Shown: positions 1 through 6,859 of the stretch, piece by piece
How positions within the stretch are numbered: position 1 is the stretch's first letter
Layout: each line of letters begins with the position of its first letter
Assembly: GCF_000758525.1 (NCBI RefSeq)
Contig: NZ_CP009241.1
Coordinates: 4,588,001-4,652,000 of the forward strand
DNA from: Paenibacillus sp. FSL H7-0357
Lineage (GTDB): Bacteria > Bacillota > Bacilli > Paenibacillales > Paenibacillaceae
Length of the DNA stretch: 64,000 nt
Direction: 5' to 3'
Made by a program: the position numbers and the translations under genes
The notes under the pieces: model-generated
The model's database searches: none
What the model was told of the DNA's origin: nothing
The model's input: only the letters and a program-made list of their open reading frames with translations

Positions 1-1340
1 CTCTTCACCTCAGCGGGTACATTATCCTCCATCGCAGCCGCAGGCGTACCCTCGCGCGGTGAATAAATGAAGGTATAAGCCATATCATATCCTACTTCAC
101 GCACCAGCGACAGTGTTTCTTCGAACTGTTCCTCGGTTTCACCGGGGAATCCCACGATGATATCCGTCGTCAGCACGGCAGCCGGCACACTGGCCTTAAT
201 CTTGCGGACAAGCTCCATGTACGCCTCACGTGTGTATTTGCGGCTCATCTTCTTCAGAACGGCAGTACTTCCGGACTGTACCGGCAGGTGAATATGCTCT
301 GCGAGATTTCCGCCTTTTCCCAGTACTTCAATCAATCTATCGTCAAAATCGCGGGGATGCGAAGTCATGAAGCGGATGCGTGGAATGTCGATCTTGCGCA
401 TATCGTCCATGAGGTCCCCGAATGTATAATCCAAATCCGTAAAATCCTTGCCGTATGCATTCACATTCTGCCCCAGCAAAGTCACTTCCTTAAAGCCCTG
501 ACGGGCCAGCTCCCGAACCTCGGCGATGACATCCTCCGGACGGCGGCTGCGCTCCTTACCCCGCGTAAACGGTACGATGCAGTAGGTACAGAACTTATCA
601 CAGCCGTACATGATATTCACCCAGGCACGCATCCCCTCCCGTTTCTTCGGCAGGTTCTCGATGATGTCGCCTTCCTTGGACCAGACTTCAACTACAAGCT
701 CCTTGCTATAAACCGCTTCCTTAACAAGCTGCGGCAGCCGGTGGATATTGTGCGTGCCAAAGATCATGTCAACGAAGCCGTATTTGGACATGATGCGGTT
801 AACCACGCCTTCCTCCTGTGACATGCAGCCACAGACCCCAAGCAGCAGACCCGGCTTCTCGAGCTTCAGCGTCTTGAGATGGCCCAGCTCCCCGAACACC
901 TTATCTTCGGCATTCTCGCGGATCGCACAAGTATTCAGCAGAATAATATCAGCCTCATTGCGGTCTTCGGCAGCGAGATAACCCATTTGCTCCAGCATGC
1001 CTTTCATCGTTTCCGTATCATGCTCGTTCATCTGGCAGCCGTAGGTGGCGATGAAATAATAATGCTGTTTGTGGCGGTTTATCTCCCGGAACTGCTCCAT
1101 GGCCTGATTTGTATCAGTATCTTCAAAGTTTATAACTTCTATTTCCTGCTTGCCCCTGCGCTTGCCCTCTTTGTAGTCCGGGTTGGAATTGATCTGTACG
1201 GTACGTCCTTTGATTCTATACGTAGTTTTGCCTTCTTCTTCACTGATGACTTTGGCATCAGAAAAATCAAAATACTTCGAGTAATCTTTCGAACCACCCT
1301 TGCCGAATTTTAAGTCCGGTGAGTTATTCCCCATTGTCAT
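1..1340 (-). CDS. miaB: tRNA-2-methylthio-N6-dimethylallyladenosine synthase MiaB (5' part, runs off the window)
   Basis: Radical-SAM methylthiotransferase that adds the 2-methylthio group to i6A37 in tRNAs reading UNN codons. About 446 residues from the N-terminus are visible; the C-terminus, with the TRAM domain, lies beyond the left edge. The UPF0004 domain has its three cluster cysteines at about residues 102 ([11 protein letters not shown]), 138 ([10 protein letters not shown]) and 172 (GCMSQEE). The radical-SAM cluster motif CDKFCTYC is at residues 247-254, followed by [11 protein letters not shown], which is typical of MiaB. Two ATGs lie 6 nt apart; the first (1340) is preceded by GGACGTGGAATA. 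An N-terminal extension of about 90 residues before the first domain is usual in Bacillales MiaB. Identification is secure; only the end is missing. Confidence 0.95.
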
Positions 1341-1407
1341 TATTCCACGTCCTTTATATTGAAGCTTTGTAAAATAAACTCTAGAATTTTATTCTTGCTA
1401 ATAAAAA

Positions 1408-1437
1408 ATTATAGCATAAGGATAAAATGCAATCCAA
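1408..1437 (-). promoter_or_regulatory. Probable sigma-A promoter of miaB
   Basis: On the minus strand, TTGGAT (1437-1432) and a perfect TATAAT (1413-1408) are separated by 18 nt, about 70 nt before the miaB start. This is sequence reading only; no transcript start is known. Confidence 0.55.
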
Positions 1438-1499
1438 GTTTTACAATTTTAAAAGGCAATCTGGTAGAATAAACTATATCCCCTGATACAATTAAAATT

Positions 1500-1661
1500 C
1501 TACATACTAATAAACCCTCCTACTTTAATAAGTAAGAAGGTTCGTCTAAAGTTATTATTTCGTACATTTATTATCTGCGGATATACATCCGTAAATAGAC
1601 CAAATCGAACTTGGAATCCTTGACGCAAATACAGTAAAACATCTTCATAGCTGCACATCAT
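1500..1661 (-). CDS. Possible 53-residue small protein
   Basis: An open frame starts at ATGATG, directly behind AGGGGAG, and ends in TAG before the miaB promoter. The spacing from the ribosome site to the first ATG is almost zero and to the second only 3 nt, so the start is doubtful. The peptide (MMCSYEDVLLYLRQGF...) has no recognisable domain or membrane segment. It lies between the miaB promoter and the divergent regulator gene, where no other coding signal is seen. It could be chance; low confidence. Confidence 0.25.
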   Translation of the reverse strand: MMCSYEDVLLYLRQGFQVRFGLFTDVYPQIINVRNNNFRRTFLLIKVGGFISM

Positions 1662-1810
1662 CTCCCCTGAAAAGTATTGCTTGTTCCAAGTTTAGCAAAC
1701 CACCGCTACACATACGTTACACATTTCTACAAAAAACCACATATTACGATAAAATATTATATTTTTTTCAGATATAATCATTATATAATGCAACGTAGAG
1801 GGGTACAGTA

Positions 1811-3388
1811 ATGGCTTATATTTCAAGACATGACATCGATATCCATTATGAATACGAGACGGCAAAAAACACCAGTGACCGCACAGAAACCTTGGTACTT
1901 ATCCATGGTCTGGGGTTTGATCTGAGAAGCTGGGACTTTATGGTTCCATATATGACTGACAACTACCATATTGTAAGATATGATCTCCGGGGTCATGGAT
2001 TAAGCGGAAGCTCCAAGACTACCCTTGATAAACTGGCCGCATTATTTGTCGAAAATTTGCGAATGCTGCTGGAAGATCTCCAGATTCAAACCTTCCATAT
2101 CATCGCCCATGGGGCAGGGAGCATTATTGCCCTGTATTTTGCCAAAGCGTATCCGGATCGAGTAAGAAGCACTGTTCTTTTGTCGCTTCCCTTGTTCAAT
2201 TCGTCGGGGACAGCCAATAAATATAAGGACTACCGCAAAAAGCTGATGACTTATCAATCCATGCTGGCGCTTGCAGACCACGTGATTCCTAACGCAACCC
2301 TTTATCCGCGCCATAGCGCAGAAACGGAAGCGCTGTACAGCGCTTTTGCCAAAGTCACCTTTGACGTTTATCTGGAACTGCTGGATTTCTTTGCTTATGC
2401 ACATAACGAGATTATGGATCTGTTCAAACAGCATACTCATCCGACATTAATGTTGACTGGGGAACAGGACCCGATGTATCCTCCCTATCTGTCCAGCCTG
2501 ATTGCATCCGCCAATCCGAATTGCCGGTTTATGACCTTATACAATGCATCCAACATGGTTTTTTATGATCAGCCGGAGGAAACCTTTAAACAAATTGAAG
2601 TCTTTCTGAACAGTAAGTGGATAAACAGGGCTCCTTTGGACCCTTTGCTGTTGAATTTGCATTCCGAATTTCTGGACATGGTTAACAATAATCCGGCCGG
2701 TAACGCCCCATCCGTACAATTGAAGATCAATTTACTCAACAGATTTACGGTTGCCGTAGATGATATTCCGATTATTAGTGGCTGGGGAAGGAGAAGCGCC
2801 AAGGATTTGCTGATTTATTTGCTGCTGAATCCCGTCGTCACCAGAGACCGGCTCTGTGAAGAATTATGGCGGGATATGGATCTTGTCAAAGCCAGAGGTC
2901 AGCTTCGGGTATGCCTCACCCATCTGAAGCAGTTGCTGAACAATGAGGTCACGAAACTGATCTACAGCGATAAACAGCAAATTTCCCTGCAGACTGCTGT
3001 GGACTCCGATGTGCTGACTCTGATGGCGGAGATTAACCGGGCTAATGAGGAAACTAATCCTGAACTGAAGGAACCACTGATTCATTCTGTTTTTGCGCAG
3101 ATCCAGCCTGACCTATTCAGAAATCTAAACCAGGAATGGAACCTGCACCTGAGAGTCAAAATGGAGATTCAACTGGTTACACTTGCCCATCAGCAATCAG
3201 ATTATCTCGCGTCTCAAGGCAAGTTCACTGCGGCTATAGCGTTTTTAAAATATGTACTTTTATTTAATGCGGAAGAGTTCGATGCCTACGAGCAAATCGC
3301 TAACCTGTATGAACAAAACCATCAAAAGCATGAAGCGAAGAAATGGCGGCTCAAGGCGGAACAATTGCAGCACACCAAAAGTATGTAA
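1811..3388 (+). CDS. Degenerate alpha/beta-hydrolase fused to a SARP-type (winged-helix plus BTAD) transcriptional regulator
   Basis: Two-module protein of 525 residues. Residues 1-270 have the alpha/beta-hydrolase fold signature: oxyanion HGLG at 32-35, the DLRGHGLS strand-turn at 58-65, and the acid in LTGEQD at 220. The nucleophile elbow, however, reads AHGAG (99-103), with Gly101 where serine is expected, and the catalytic histidine position appears to be Asn248 (ASNMVFYDQPEE). Residues 302-395 match the OmpR-like winged helix of SARP/AfsR regulators (LLNRFTVAVDD ... RLCEELWRD), and 400-520 match the BTAD helical domain. I infer a transcription factor in which a dead hydrolase fold senses a small molecule. 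The start is supported by GAGGGG 7 nt upstream. The gene converges on the ketoacyl-synthase gene with a 12-nt gap, suggesting one locus. Target genes are unknown. Confidence 0.8.
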   Translation: MAYISRHDIDIHYEYETAKNTSDRTETLVLIHGLGFDLRSWDFMVPYMTDNYHIVRYDLRGHGLSGSSKTTLDKLAALFVENLRMLLEDLQIQTFHIIAHGAGSIIALYFAKAYPDRVRSTVLLSLPLFNSSGTANKYKDYRKKLMTYQSMLALADHVIPNATLYPRHSAETEALYSAFAKVTFDVYLELLDFFAYAHNEIMDLFKQHTHPTLMLTGEQDPMYPPYLSSLIASANPNCRFMTLYNASNMVFYDQPEETFKQIEVFLNSKWINRAPLDPLLLNLHSEFLDMVNNNPAGNAPSVQLKINLLNRFTVAVDDIPIISGWGRRSAKDLLIYLLLNPVVTRDRLCEELWRDMDLVKARGQLRVCLTHLKQLLNNEVTKLIYSDKQQISLQTAVDSDVLTLMAEINRANEETNPELKEPLIHSVFAQIQPDLFRNLNQEWNLHLRVKMEIQLVTLAHQQSDYLASQGKFTAAIAFLKYVLLFNAEEFDAYEQIANLYEQNHQKHEAKKWRLKAEQLQHTKSM

Positions 3389-3400
3389 ATTGTTAAATCA

Positions 3401-4591
3401 TCATTGCTTCGTTAAATAGACACAGGCATTGTTGCCTCCGTATCCATGACTTGTAATCAGTACTTCGGATGTGGCTTTCGGGAGAGTCTTTGTGATTAAT
3501 GGAAGATGCTCATAGCCAAGTTGATCTGTCCGGATGGTTCCGGGAATAAAATGATGCTGAAAGCCGAGCAAGGAGGCAATAATCTGCGCCAGGCCGCTGA
3601 CGCTGAACGGATGGCCGATCAGCCCTTTGATCGAGGTCAGCGGTACTTCATGCTGAAAGATATCCCTGGAGACTATATCCTCGATTCTGTCATTAGCGTC
3701 GTAACCCAAGGCCTGGCTGTTAAAATAGTCAGGTCTTCTGTTGCCCAGCACATCATTTACCGCCCGCTTCATATTCCTTCCGGTTTTGTCCTGGCCATTC
3801 ACCGATTCAGCGTCATTATTCGTAGACACGGTGTCTACATAGCCATAAATAGTTGCATTGCGGCTAAGCGCATGTTCCTCGGTTTCCAGAACCAGGCTGG
3901 CAGCCCCCTCCGACAGTATGAAGCCTTTGCTTTTTTTGTTGAACGGCGATCCGGAATTCCTGATGTCTTGATTGAATGGCAGCGCTCTTATTTTTCCGAA
4001 CCCGTACACCGTCACTTTATTGTTGCTGCTATCCGCTGCACCTATAATCGCCGTGTTTATCTTTCCACTTTGCAGATACAGCATGGCGTCCTCCAGCGCT
4101 TCAAGTCCGGCAGTGCAGCCGGTCGTTACCGTCTTCGATATTCCTGTCAGATGAAAAAAGCTGGAGATGGAGGAAGCCAGACTGTGATAATGCACCAACC
4201 CGCAGCAGTAAACGGGCATTTCTCTGAACTTGCCGGCAGATGCGTAATGGACCATTTCCTCCAGCGGAGTTGTACCGCCCATGGTGGTTCCAAAGAACAC
4301 CCCCGTCTTATTGCCAGGGTCCGTCAGATCTAGTCCAGCCATCGCTAGTGCTTCAGCGCTTGTACTAATGGCCAGCTTGGAGATTCTCGGCAGAACCCGG
4401 TACTGCTTATCCTCCAGCGTCCCCAAATCCCCAAGAACTTCACCAACCCATAAAGGCTCCTGATTCGGTGTAATATCATTTCTGGCCGTGAAATCATACT
4501 CGCCGCTGATCAAATGATCCAACAAATCGTTATTGTTCTCTCCGTTAGGAACCTTCACGCCAAAACCGGTAATTGCTATTCGCTTATTCAT
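3401..4591 (-). CDS. Beta-ketoacyl-ACP synthase-like protein (FabF/KAS II fold) with a substituted catalytic histidine
   Basis: Thiolase-fold condensing enzyme of 396 residues, the usual KAS II length. The active-site cysteine is present in TTGCTAG (Cys159), as are Lys322 and His327 of the second half (SIKGLIGHPF). The first histidine of the Cys-His-His triad, normally in the NAHGT loop, is Gln293 (FNSQALGYD). In known KAS I/II enzymes this histidine supports malonyl-ACP decarboxylation, so a changed reaction, such as acyl transfer without decarboxylation, is possible (inference). Its start overlaps the end of a 42-codon ORF by 8 nt, implying translational coupling, and the OYE reductase gene lies upstream. 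No acyl carrier protein, acyltransferase or ketoreductase gene is present in the window, so it is not a complete polyketide or fatty-acid set. Confidence 0.82.
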   Translation of the reverse strand: MNKRIAITGFGVKVPNGENNNDLLDHLISGEYDFTARNDITPNQEPLWVGEVLGDLGTLEDKQYRVLPRISKLAISTSAEALAMAGLDLTDPGNKTGVFFGTTMGGTTPLEEMVHYASAGKFREMPVYCCGLVHYHSLASSISSFFHLTGISKTVTTGCTAGLEALEDAMLYLQSGKINTAIIGAADSSNNKVTVYGFGKIRALPFNQDIRNSGSPFNKKSKGFILSEGAASLVLETEEHALSRNATIYGYVDTVSTNNDAESVNGQDKTGRNMKRAVNDVLGNRRPDYFNSQALGYDANDRIEDIVSRDIFQHEVPLTSIKGLIGHPFSVSGLAQIIASLLGFQHHFIPGTIRTDQLGYEHLPLITKTLPKATSEVLITSHGYGGNNACVYLTKQ

Positions 4592-4712
4592 CGTTCCCCA
4601 CCCTTTTCCTGATAATTAATAAAAAGAAAACACAAAGAGGACTTCTCCCACCTGCGCGTTTTGGATGCTCCGTCCAAAACTCTCCAATGCGGTTGAAGCC
4701 CTCTCTGCTCAT
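4584..4712 (-). CDS. 42-residue peptide gene between OYE and KAS genes
   Basis: The ATG at 4712 is preceded by a strong TTAGGAGGAAGG ribosome site about 9 nt upstream. The frame stays open for 42 codons and ends (TAA) inside the first codons of the ketoacyl-synthase gene, an arrangement typical of translational coupling. The peptide begins MSREGFNRIGEFW, has a basic middle part (HPKRAGGRS) and a hydrophobic stretch, CVFFLLII, near the end. No family is recognised. Its coding sequence contains an 8-bp stem hairpin (4658-4680), so it could instead be a dispersed repeat that happens to be open, or a leader controlling the synthase. The start signal is better than that of many real genes nearby. 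Confidence 0.5.
   Translation of the reverse strand: MSREGFNRIGEFWTEHPKRAGGRSPLCVFFLLIIRKRVGNDE
4658..4680. repeat. Short hairpin inside the 42-codon ORF
   Basis: GTTTTGGA and TCCAAAAC are perfect inverted arms around a 7-nt loop. There is no U-tract next to it, so it is not a standard terminator. It may affect coupling to the synthase gene or mark a dispersed repeat. Confidence 0.6.
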
Positions 4713-4746
4713 AATTGCCTTCCTCCTAAAGTTAGCCGGCTGCCGT

Positions 4747-5841
4747 TCAGTTCAGTGTCTTTGTGGACTCGGACGTAAACGGAATGATCTCATCCATTCT
4801 GCCGCTTTGCACTTTGGCCGGCCACTGCGGATCACTGATCAGCGCTCTGCCGACCGCTACCAGATCAAATTCCGCTTGTTCCAGCTTTTCCAGCAGGCGT
4901 TCGATGTTATCTTCCTCATTTTCCTCCTTCACCGCACTGGTGAACTCGCTGTTGAGACCTACAGAACCTACCGTGATGGTTGGTTTGCCGGTGATTTTCT
5001 TCGTCCAGCCGGCCAGATTCAGCTCGGAGCCTTCGAACTCCGGCAGCCAGAAGCGGCGTGTGGAGCAGTGGAAGATATCGACTCCGGCATTGCTGAGCGG
5101 TGTCAGGAAACGGGACAGCTCTTCCGGTGTTTGGGCAAGCTTGGCAGAGTAATCTCCGCTCTTCCATTGCGAGAAGCGCAGCACAATCGGGAAATCCGGT
5201 CCAACCGCACGGCGGCAGGCATCAATAACCTCGACCGCAAAGGTAGTCCGCGCTTCAAGATCACCGCCATATTGATCGGTGCGCTGATTGGTCTTCTCCC
5301 AGAAGAACTGGTCGATCAGATAACCATGTGCCCCATGCAGCTCAATGCCGTCAAAACCGATCCGCTTGGCGTCTACGGCCGCCTGGGCAAAAGCAGCGAT
5401 GATACCGTCGATCTCCTGCTGCGTCATCGGCTCTGTAATCTGCTGGCCGGCCAAATTCAGCCCGGATGGACCAATCGGCAGCGCTTCGGCATTCGGCAGC
5501 TCGCCAATGTTGCGGGCCATGCCGACATGCCAGAGCTGCGGAATGATTTTGCCGCCGGCGGCGTGAACTTCTTCCACAACCTTAGCCCAGCCGGCCAAAG
5601 CAGCCTCCCCGTGAATATTCGGAATATTCGGATGGCTGACGGCTGACGGATGGTTGATCGCTGTGCCTTCGGTTACAATCAGGCCTACTCCACCCTCTGT
5701 CCGTTTGCGGTAATACTCGGCAACCGCTTCGGTTGCTACCCCGTTCGGTGAATATGCCCGGGTCATTGGCGCCATTACGATCCGGTTTTGAAGTGAAAGC
5801 GTTCCAACCTGAAAAGGTGTAAACAATTTATCGGTATTCAT
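4747..5841 (-). CDS. Old Yellow Enzyme family NADH:flavin oxidoreductase / alkene reductase
   Basis: FMN-dependent TIM-barrel ene-reductase of 364 residues, reducing activated C=C bonds (enals, enones, quinones or nitro-compounds) with NAD(P)H. Visible family features are LFTPFQVGTLSLQNRIVMAPMTR at the N-terminus (shown here as its first 23 residues in two parts: LFTPFQVGTL and SLQNRIVMAPMTR), the substrate-binding HGAHGYLIDQFFW with its paired residues, NQRTDQYGG, and the phosphate-binding VGRALISDP near the C-terminus. AAATGGAGGTAGTAT precedes the ATG. Its promoter contains a dyad suited to an HxlR/MarR-type electrophile sensor. It is followed after 34 nt by the 42-codon ORF and then the ketoacyl synthase, so a three-gene operon is likely. 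Substrate specificity cannot be told from sequence. Confidence 0.92.
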   Translation of the reverse strand: MNTDKLFTPFQVGTLSLQNRIVMAPMTRAYSPNGVATEAVAEYYRKRTEGGVGLIVTEGTAINHPSAVSHPNIPNIHGEAALAGWAKVVEEVHAAGGKIIPQLWHVGMARNIGELPNAEALPIGPSGLNLAGQQITEPMTQQEIDGIIAAFAQAAVDAKRIGFDGIELHGAHGYLIDQFFWEKTNQRTDQYGGDLEARTTFAVEVIDACRRAVGPDFPIVLRFSQWKSGDYSAKLAQTPEELSRFLTPLSNAGVDIFHCSTRRFWLPEFEGSELNLAGWTKKITGKPTITVGSVGLNSEFTSAVKEENEEDNIERLLEKLEQAEFDLVAVGRALISDPQWPAKVQSGRMDEIIPFTSESTKTLN

Positions 5842-5866
5842 ATACTACCTCCATTTAATAATATAA

Positions 5867-5912
5867 TTACTTTAAGTAAGGATATTATGACGCTAGTTGA
5901 AGGCAATTGCAA
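5867..5912 (-). promoter_or_regulatory. OYE operon promoter with overlapping dyad operator
   Basis: TTGCAA (5912-5907) and CATAAT (5889-5884) are 17 nt apart on the minus strand. Immediately downstream, over the expected transcript start, lies the perfect palindrome TTACTT-T-AAGTAA (5867-5879). A dyad there fits repression by an HxlR- or MarR-type regulator, as is common for OYE genes; the regulator is not identified. Confidence 0.55.
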
Positions 5913-5950
5913 ATCCTGGCAGCAGATCTTCAGGACAGCCGCTGCTGCGC

Positions 5951-5989
5951 AAAAAACCGGACAAAGGCAGATAATCTGCCCATGTCCGG
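5951..5989 (-). terminator. Rho-independent terminator of the rhamnose operon
   Basis: On the minus strand an outer CCGGACA/TGTCCGG stem encloses an inner GGCAGAT/ATCTGCC stem, followed directly by six T. It lies 24 nt beyond the rhaD stop codon. Confidence 0.9.
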
Positions 5990-6013
5990 TTGCCCTTCGC
6001 TATGATGTGTATT

Positions 6014-6859
6014 TTATAACTCCAGGATGCCGGCTTTGGGTGTAACATGGAAAGCCGCCGCCAGATCCGCCAGCTGGCGGTCGGTAATCTTCTGTTTGAT
6101 TTCTCTGCCACCGATCAGGTTATAGACAATCGCCGCCTTCTCAATCGTTTCCACCAGACCAAAGGTAGCATCCATCGTGCCGCCGGTCACAAAAATGCCA
6201 TGCTGCGGCCAGATAACTACCCGGTACTCCTTCATTTTATCGGCTGTGGCGCGGCCGATTTCACTGCTGCCGGGAACGATCCAAGGAATAACCCCCACGC
6301 CGTCTGGGAAAACCACCAGACATTCGGTGCACATTTCCCATAAGGTTTTGGTGAATTTCAGCTCATCCAGATCATGCGTGAAGGTCATGGCAATGACATT
6401 GGTAGCGTGGGTATGCAGTACGATCCGGTGGTTGGGGTCCACCTTCAGGCGCTCAATATGGCTCATGAAATGGGAAGCCAGCTCGCTCGTCGGCACGGCG
6501 TTGTTGCGCAGACCCCAGAGCACTTCTACGCTCTCGCCGCTGTCCGTGACACGCAGCACCCCGAGATTGGCTTCCGGGTCTTTGATTACATTCCGGAAAT
6601 ATTTGCCGGAGCCGGTGACGATGAAATATTTGCCGGCCAGCTCAGTGACCGGGAAGGTCAGGTTAATCGTCCGCAACGGTTCCCGTACGTTAATGTATTT
6701 AGCAACCTCATCCTCTTCCAGCAAATAGCTGACGTTACCGCCGTTCAGCTCATCCCAGCCGAGCGACCACATGTGATGGGTAATCTCCGACATTTCCTGA
6801 ATAAATGGCGCCTCGATGCCGGCAATGTATCCTTTGGACTTCATTACAGATGTACTCAT
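6014..6859 (-). CDS. rhaD: L-rhamnulose-1-phosphate aldolase
   Basis: Class II, zinc-dependent aldolase that splits L-rhamnulose 1-phosphate into dihydroxyacetone phosphate and L-lactaldehyde, the last rhamnose-specific step. The family core is seen in the N-terminal [20 protein letters not shown], the GSGKYFRN phosphate loop, the zinc-binding [13 protein letters not shown] and the [10 protein letters not shown] region. The start chosen ([10 protein letters not shown], 281 residues) has AAAGGAGA at a good distance; an in-frame ATG eight codons upstream has none. It is last in the operon, 58 nt after rhaA, and followed by a strong terminator. Confidence 0.95.

Follow-up and report, generated by a model that had tools for sequence, protein, structure and literature searches.

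A conserved regulator family joining a catalytically dead alpha/beta-hydrolase fold to a SARP-type DNA-binding module in Paenibacillus and its relatives

Regulators in which a catalytically dead alpha/beta-hydrolase fold is joined to a SARP module are a real and conserved family, one member of which (REG, the regulator gene of Table 1) was analysed here in a 64,000-nucleotide stretch, hereafter the window, of the 7.69 Mb single-contig genome of Paenibacillus sp. FSL H7-0357. The fold, the family-wide loss of the nucleophile and the catalytic His, the SARP module, the purifying selection and the conserved upstream repeat were all computed. We give slightly better than even chances to an account in which REG is a one-protein SARP-type regulator with the dead hydrolase as its input: the hydrolase pocket would bind an ester-, lactone- or acyl-like small metabolite without turning it over, binding would change how the SARP modules sit on the 11-bp tandem repeats, and REG would act on its own gene and a few others, the convergent KAS-like gene being the best local candidate and the neighbouring OYE gene a bystander.

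Table 1. Coordinates of the features discussed, numbered from the first nucleotide of the window
Feature	Position	Strand	Basis or remark
REG (regulator gene), 525 aa	1811..3388	+	ORF; genus orthologues; dN/dS
Alpha/beta-hydrolase fold, residues 1-270, catalytically dead	1811..2620	+	
SARP module (winged helix + BTAD)	2705..3385	+	model, AfsR/EmbR alignments, hhalign
Gly101 codon, nucleophile position	2111..2113	+	alignments
Asp220 codon	2468..2470	+	alignment
Asn248 codon, catalytic-His position	2552..2554	+	alignments
Tandem heptamer CGCTACA-CATA-CGTTACA, candidate operator	1704..1721	+	kept upstream of REG
Promoter-like -35 TCTACA / -10 TAAAAT, predicted	1726..1755	+	scan near chance: 10 sites vs 6.5 expected
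KAS-like gene, convergent with REG	3401..4591	-	first catalytic His = Gln293
Hairpin in the OYE-KAS gap, T-rich tail	4592..4720	-	folding, z -4.32
OYE-family oxidoreductase, judged bystander	4747..5841	-	sequence match; occurrence without REG

Active site and output module of REG

REG matched the Pfam model Abhydrolase_1 over residues 27-253 (E 3.4e-20), with a sub-threshold match to Trans_reg_C at residues 332-379. In alignments with solved hydrolases, AHGAG fell on the nucleophile elbow and NASNM on the catalytic His, in exact agreement with the residues that an earlier note on this DNA had named (Gly101, Asp220 and Asn248). The nucleophile column, read in 42 fused homologues or N-terminal parts of such homologues, held Gly in 35, Asp in 3 and Thr, Ser, Gln and Glu in 1 each, and the His column held Asn in 34, Tyr in 3, Ser in 3, His in 1 and Phe in 1; four stand-alone relatives had Gly and Asn in these columns, as did all genus orthologue rows (18/18). 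There were two exceptions: L056 has Ser in the nucleophile column (101) together with Asn at 248, and L103 has His in column 248 together with Gly at 101. The Ser/Cys/Asp-His-acid arrangement of catalytic alpha/beta-hydrolases was therefore absent, nucleophile and His occurring together in none of the 46 aligned rows, a count made after setting aside L089, which is broken, and the C-terminal fragments of L048 and L086, and the idea that a Ser and a His lie hidden elsewhere in the fold was ruled out on the same basis. The earlier note had read REG as a dead hydrolase fused to a SARP/BTAD module and had proposed aligning the elbow as a check; its reading was borne out, with the site dead in all aligned homologues and no Ser nucleophile or His found elsewhere in the fold.

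Between close REG pairs, dN/dS was 0.10-0.20 over the whole gene and 0.07-0.25 over the hydrolase part, purifying selection that rules out a decaying pseudo-domain. As far as sequence can tell, the hydrolase domain is retained for a role other than Ser-His hydrolysis. Because the site is dead in every aligned homologue and the domain is under purifying selection, a sensor or a scaffold is the most probable function, and we consider the hydrolase domain of REG likely to be a sensor. It is unlikely, if by no means negligible, that the fold is instead a scaffold for dimerisation or protein binding and senses no ligand, or that it keeps an unusual chemistry independent of Ser and His. Of the 46 rows, 44 keep Asp220 and 38 carry Asn at column 248, so that the site cannot be drifting freely; however, we know of no chemistry for a Gly-Asn-Asp arrangement, which speaks against the second version.

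Relative to 3-oxoadipate enol-lactonase and related esterases, REG has lost both nucleophile and His, and it scored 94 bits against the 3-oxoadipate enol-lactonase model, for which the cut-off is 255.85. Among the plant receptors with this fold, D14 and KAI2 keep the catalytic triad and GID1 acts via partner proteins; unlike any of them, REG bears its own DNA-binding module. A bolder version of the sensor reading, to our minds rather doubtful, would make REG a bacterial counterpart of the GID1 principle, with the retired hydrolase as a metabolite receptor wired directly to a SARP output, the ligand being a metabolite of acyl or lactone type on which the convergent KAS-like protein, itself short of a catalytic His, perhaps acts, and the repeat grammar common with the WalR cell-wall system.

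The C-terminal half of REG consists of a winged helix followed by a BTAD, the arrangement by which SARP/BTAD proteins are recognised, and its SARP module aligned with AfsR over 217 of 227 residues. The likeness to AfsR and EmbR lies in this module and in tandem repeats at an 11-bp period upstream; REG differs in carrying the module at its C-terminal end, joined to a dead hydrolase. SARP regulators are familiar chiefly from the antibiotic clusters of Actinobacteria, and the partners named for the Streptomyces classes in the relevant part of a review are of NB-ARC, TPR and LAL type (PMC10972967). Three BTAD proteins are encoded in the same genome, built as receiver-wHTH-BTAD, and hhalign matched the output module of REG to these regulators over 209 columns (E 2.4e-18); output module and domain order are the same, but their input is a receiver (Response_reg) and that of REG a hydrolase fold. 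The earlier remark that such an architecture is unusual in a Firmicute thus holds for the hydrolase input domain but not for the BTAD itself. An open-licence literature search found no paper on a hydrolase-SARP fusion; if REG and its family are sensors, the fusion would add to the bacterial sensor modules a new type, one whose input domain is a retired hydrolase, in a phylum other than Actinobacteria.

Distribution of the family and its stand-alone relatives

Within the genus, 20 of 100 genomes matched REG at E 1e-60 or better, 17 with orthologues at 52-65% identity (the window's own gene included) and 3 with distant copies at 33-39%. REG was interrupted in 2 of the 16 other orthologue genomes, being split in G012 and lying across contigs in G104; the two pieces in G012 are about 1.4 kb apart (L048:8299-11431). 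A tandem pair of REG copies was seen in G056 (L045:9118-12620), the upstream copy of which has no tandem repeat. At the level of the order, 58 of 296 genomes matched at E 1e-40 or better, own genome included, with the match spanning only the hydrolase part in G264, G319 and G320; across the phylum, 2 of 398 genomes matched, namely the own genome and one of the genus. Absences in the order and phylum scans are soft, as scoring in each genome was limited to the top 5 or 3 candidates. A genome-contig scan gave a single match, L034, confined to the hydrolase part.

The surroundings of distant homologues varied. No KAS match was found in the loci L049-L060 or L088-L104. A large SLH surface protein was encoded divergently to the REG homologue in L057 (1578-9077) and L100 (1854-8699) and two genes on from it in L094, and a sensor kinase and an AraC-type response regulator were encoded nearby in L056, as they are, judging by clustering, in further loci of that genus.

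Dead hydrolases without a SARP module were encoded at L088:9511-10473, L095:9535-10431, L096:9537-10433 and L097:9573-10469, and one of them had 33% identity to the domain in the window. All four have a divergent neighbour from a single gene cluster, which carried HTH_3 in the one tested (L095); regulators of more than one type may thus make use of the dead fold, and a stand-alone dead hydrolase with its divergent neighbour is possibly a two-protein version of REG. Since catalytic, stand-alone dead and fused dead relatives all occur in one order, the passage from enzyme to receptor is open to testing.

The upstream repeat and its candidate owners

In 16 genus upstream regions, CGTTACA occurs twice at an 11-bp period within a conserved block. 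Twenty of the 100 genus genomes contain the exact form CGYTACA-n4-CGTTACA. In 16 of the 17 REG genomes it precedes REG, while G012, the seventeenth, has it at another place; the remaining 3 genomes come from the 83 others, two of their sites lying in coding frames and one being intergenic. G012, in which REG is broken, carries upstream of REG a version with one mismatch; a second repeat-like site in this genome (L048) lies between the C-terminal piece of REG and OYE, in the place where KAS would be. More broadly, of 42 regions upstream of REG, 27 had TTACA recurring with a period of 11 bp, including those of homologues with about 27% identity in another family, against a mean of 0.08 and a maximum of 1 in shuffles, 0 on the other strand and 0 or 1 at other spacings. 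The strict TTACA form was absent from 15 of the 42, among them the window, whose first repeat reads CTACA, and from all four stand-alone dead hydrolases (0/4). One-mismatch sites beyond REG numbered 34 versus 45 in the control, and no second target rose above control. The repeat offers a ready target for binding experiments.

For SARP sites, the review describes direct repeats of heptamers that are 4-15 bases apart and overlie the -35 region, and an AfsR site, CGTT(T/C)ATCGNN, that is also bound by PhoP (PMC10972967). At the same time, GTTACA-n5-GTTACA is the reverse complement of the WalR consensus TGTWAH-N5-TGTWAH, and candidate sites of this form, in reverse orientation, were present in 27 of 46 upstream regions, the window copy having one mismatch (GCTACA). 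The repeat fits both SARP spacing and the WalR consensus, so that autoregulation and WalR-type control are both in play, and from sequence we judge the two owners about equal. Autoregulation, the initial reading, is weakened by the WalR fit and by sites in front of wall genes.

Those sites came from a search for GTTACA-n5-GTTACA in 40 REG genomes, for which 40 further stretches were fetched. The repeat lay upstream of a gene read as ftsE, of an ftsEX pair, in all eight stretches fetched (L169-L176) of 11 matches (Pfam ABC_tran in one tested), and upstream of PdaC-like genes in four of four (Pfam on one). In seven more stretches it lay in a long gap before a gene, which was of GH3 type in the one tested, the repeat there being 385 bp from the called start. 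Twenty stretches taken at guessed positions, from the own genome and from two REG-less ones, were scanned for ftsE and gave no match.

That a WalR- or PhoP-type regulator owns the repeat, with REG as its target and REG's own targets elsewhere, perhaps in the cell envelope, is a possibility that we place somewhat short of even. It draws on the consensus match and on the sites before ftsE and the PdaC-like genes; it also draws on the distance of 28 bp between the 3' repeat and the predicted -10, itself a near-chance prediction, as compared with 8 bp in SARP promoters in the part of the source that covers them (PMC10936776). Against it, the WalR form in the 29 distant-homologue loci was found in only 15 of 319 upstream regions, 13 of them REG's own; the stand-alone dead hydrolases do not have the repeat; and many of the other matches look like chance, because 9 of the 40 fetched sites were called within an ORF and those of L192, L207 and L208 do not precede a gene start.

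The KAS-like gene and the OYE-family oxidoreductase

KAS and REG are convergent and have no common promoter. KAS keeps Cys159 and His327 and has Gln293 at the first His, a Gln found there in all sequences compared (11/11), so that the Cys-His-His active site of FabF-type enzymes is incomplete. By analogy with the known roles of the FabF-type residues, Gln at this position suggests acyl transfer rather than condensation.

KAS orthologues were found in 15 of 100 genus genomes, all within the 17 REG genomes and none among the 83 others (Fisher p 5.4e-16). On a tree built from miaB, rhaA and rhaB of 30 genomes, however, REG and KAS show just four changes each, few events on which to base the association, and a paired test, with two pairs on supported branches, was not significant (p 1). 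REG, KAS and OYE lie side by side in 12 of the 17; KAS is present and OYE absent at the locus in G054 and G056, OYE is present and KAS absent in G022 and G012, and in G039 OYE is at the REG locus with KAS elsewhere in the genome. A stop at codon 64 in G050 and a frameshift in G039, either of which may be an assembly error, break 2 of the 15 KAS copies; REG is intact in both of these genomes and in G022. OYE at 74% identity or more was present in 17 of 46 REG-less genomes (61 genomes searched), and at the 13 REG-less loci fetched OYE was intact between miaB and rhaD in 10 and KAS was present in none. As KAS is present with REG and absent at REG-less loci, REG and KAS were mostly gained or lost jointly and OYE independently. 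Homologues unconnected with KAS or OYE, which the earlier note had held would count against its reading, are the situation in the wider family, to judge by the lack of KAS matches in L049-L060 and L088-L104, whereas within the genus KAS tracks REG, and a partnership there between the two is plausible from this co-occurrence.

The earlier note had placed an OYE-peptide-KAS operon under the control of REG. We consider such an operon under a ligand-responsive REG switch very improbable: the 12 three-gene loci and the tracking of REG by KAS are in its favour, but OYE is kept without REG, no repeat was detected in the OYE-KAS gaps of the loci scanned even with 3 mismatches, and a terminator-like hairpin (-43.8 kcal/mol) separates OYE from KAS, with z values of -4.8 and -1.8 in the two relatives folded. 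The reading frame of the proposed peptide runs through the hairpin, and its start was absent from the relatives' OYE-KAS gaps inspected, so we do not regard it as a gene; an Rfam search of positions 1300-6100 gave no match. OYE as a REG target was likewise rejected, since it occurs without REG and no OYE lies beside the intact REG of L044 and L045. The account in which REG acts on its own gene and a few others draws on the dead site, the purifying selection, the SARP module, the upstream repeat, the confinement of KAS to REG genomes and the regulator-cluster neighbours of the stand-alone dead relatives. Against it stand the fit of the repeat to the WalR consensus, the 15 upstream regions that lack the strict form, the few tree changes behind the KAS association, the intact REG genes of G022, G039 and G050, the OYE-KAS gaps devoid of the repeat and the lack of a second target above control. 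OYE, from its distribution, is judged a bystander independent of REG and KAS. In the REG-less genomes (L072-L084), the interval between miaB and OYE ranges from about 0.2 kb to several kb.
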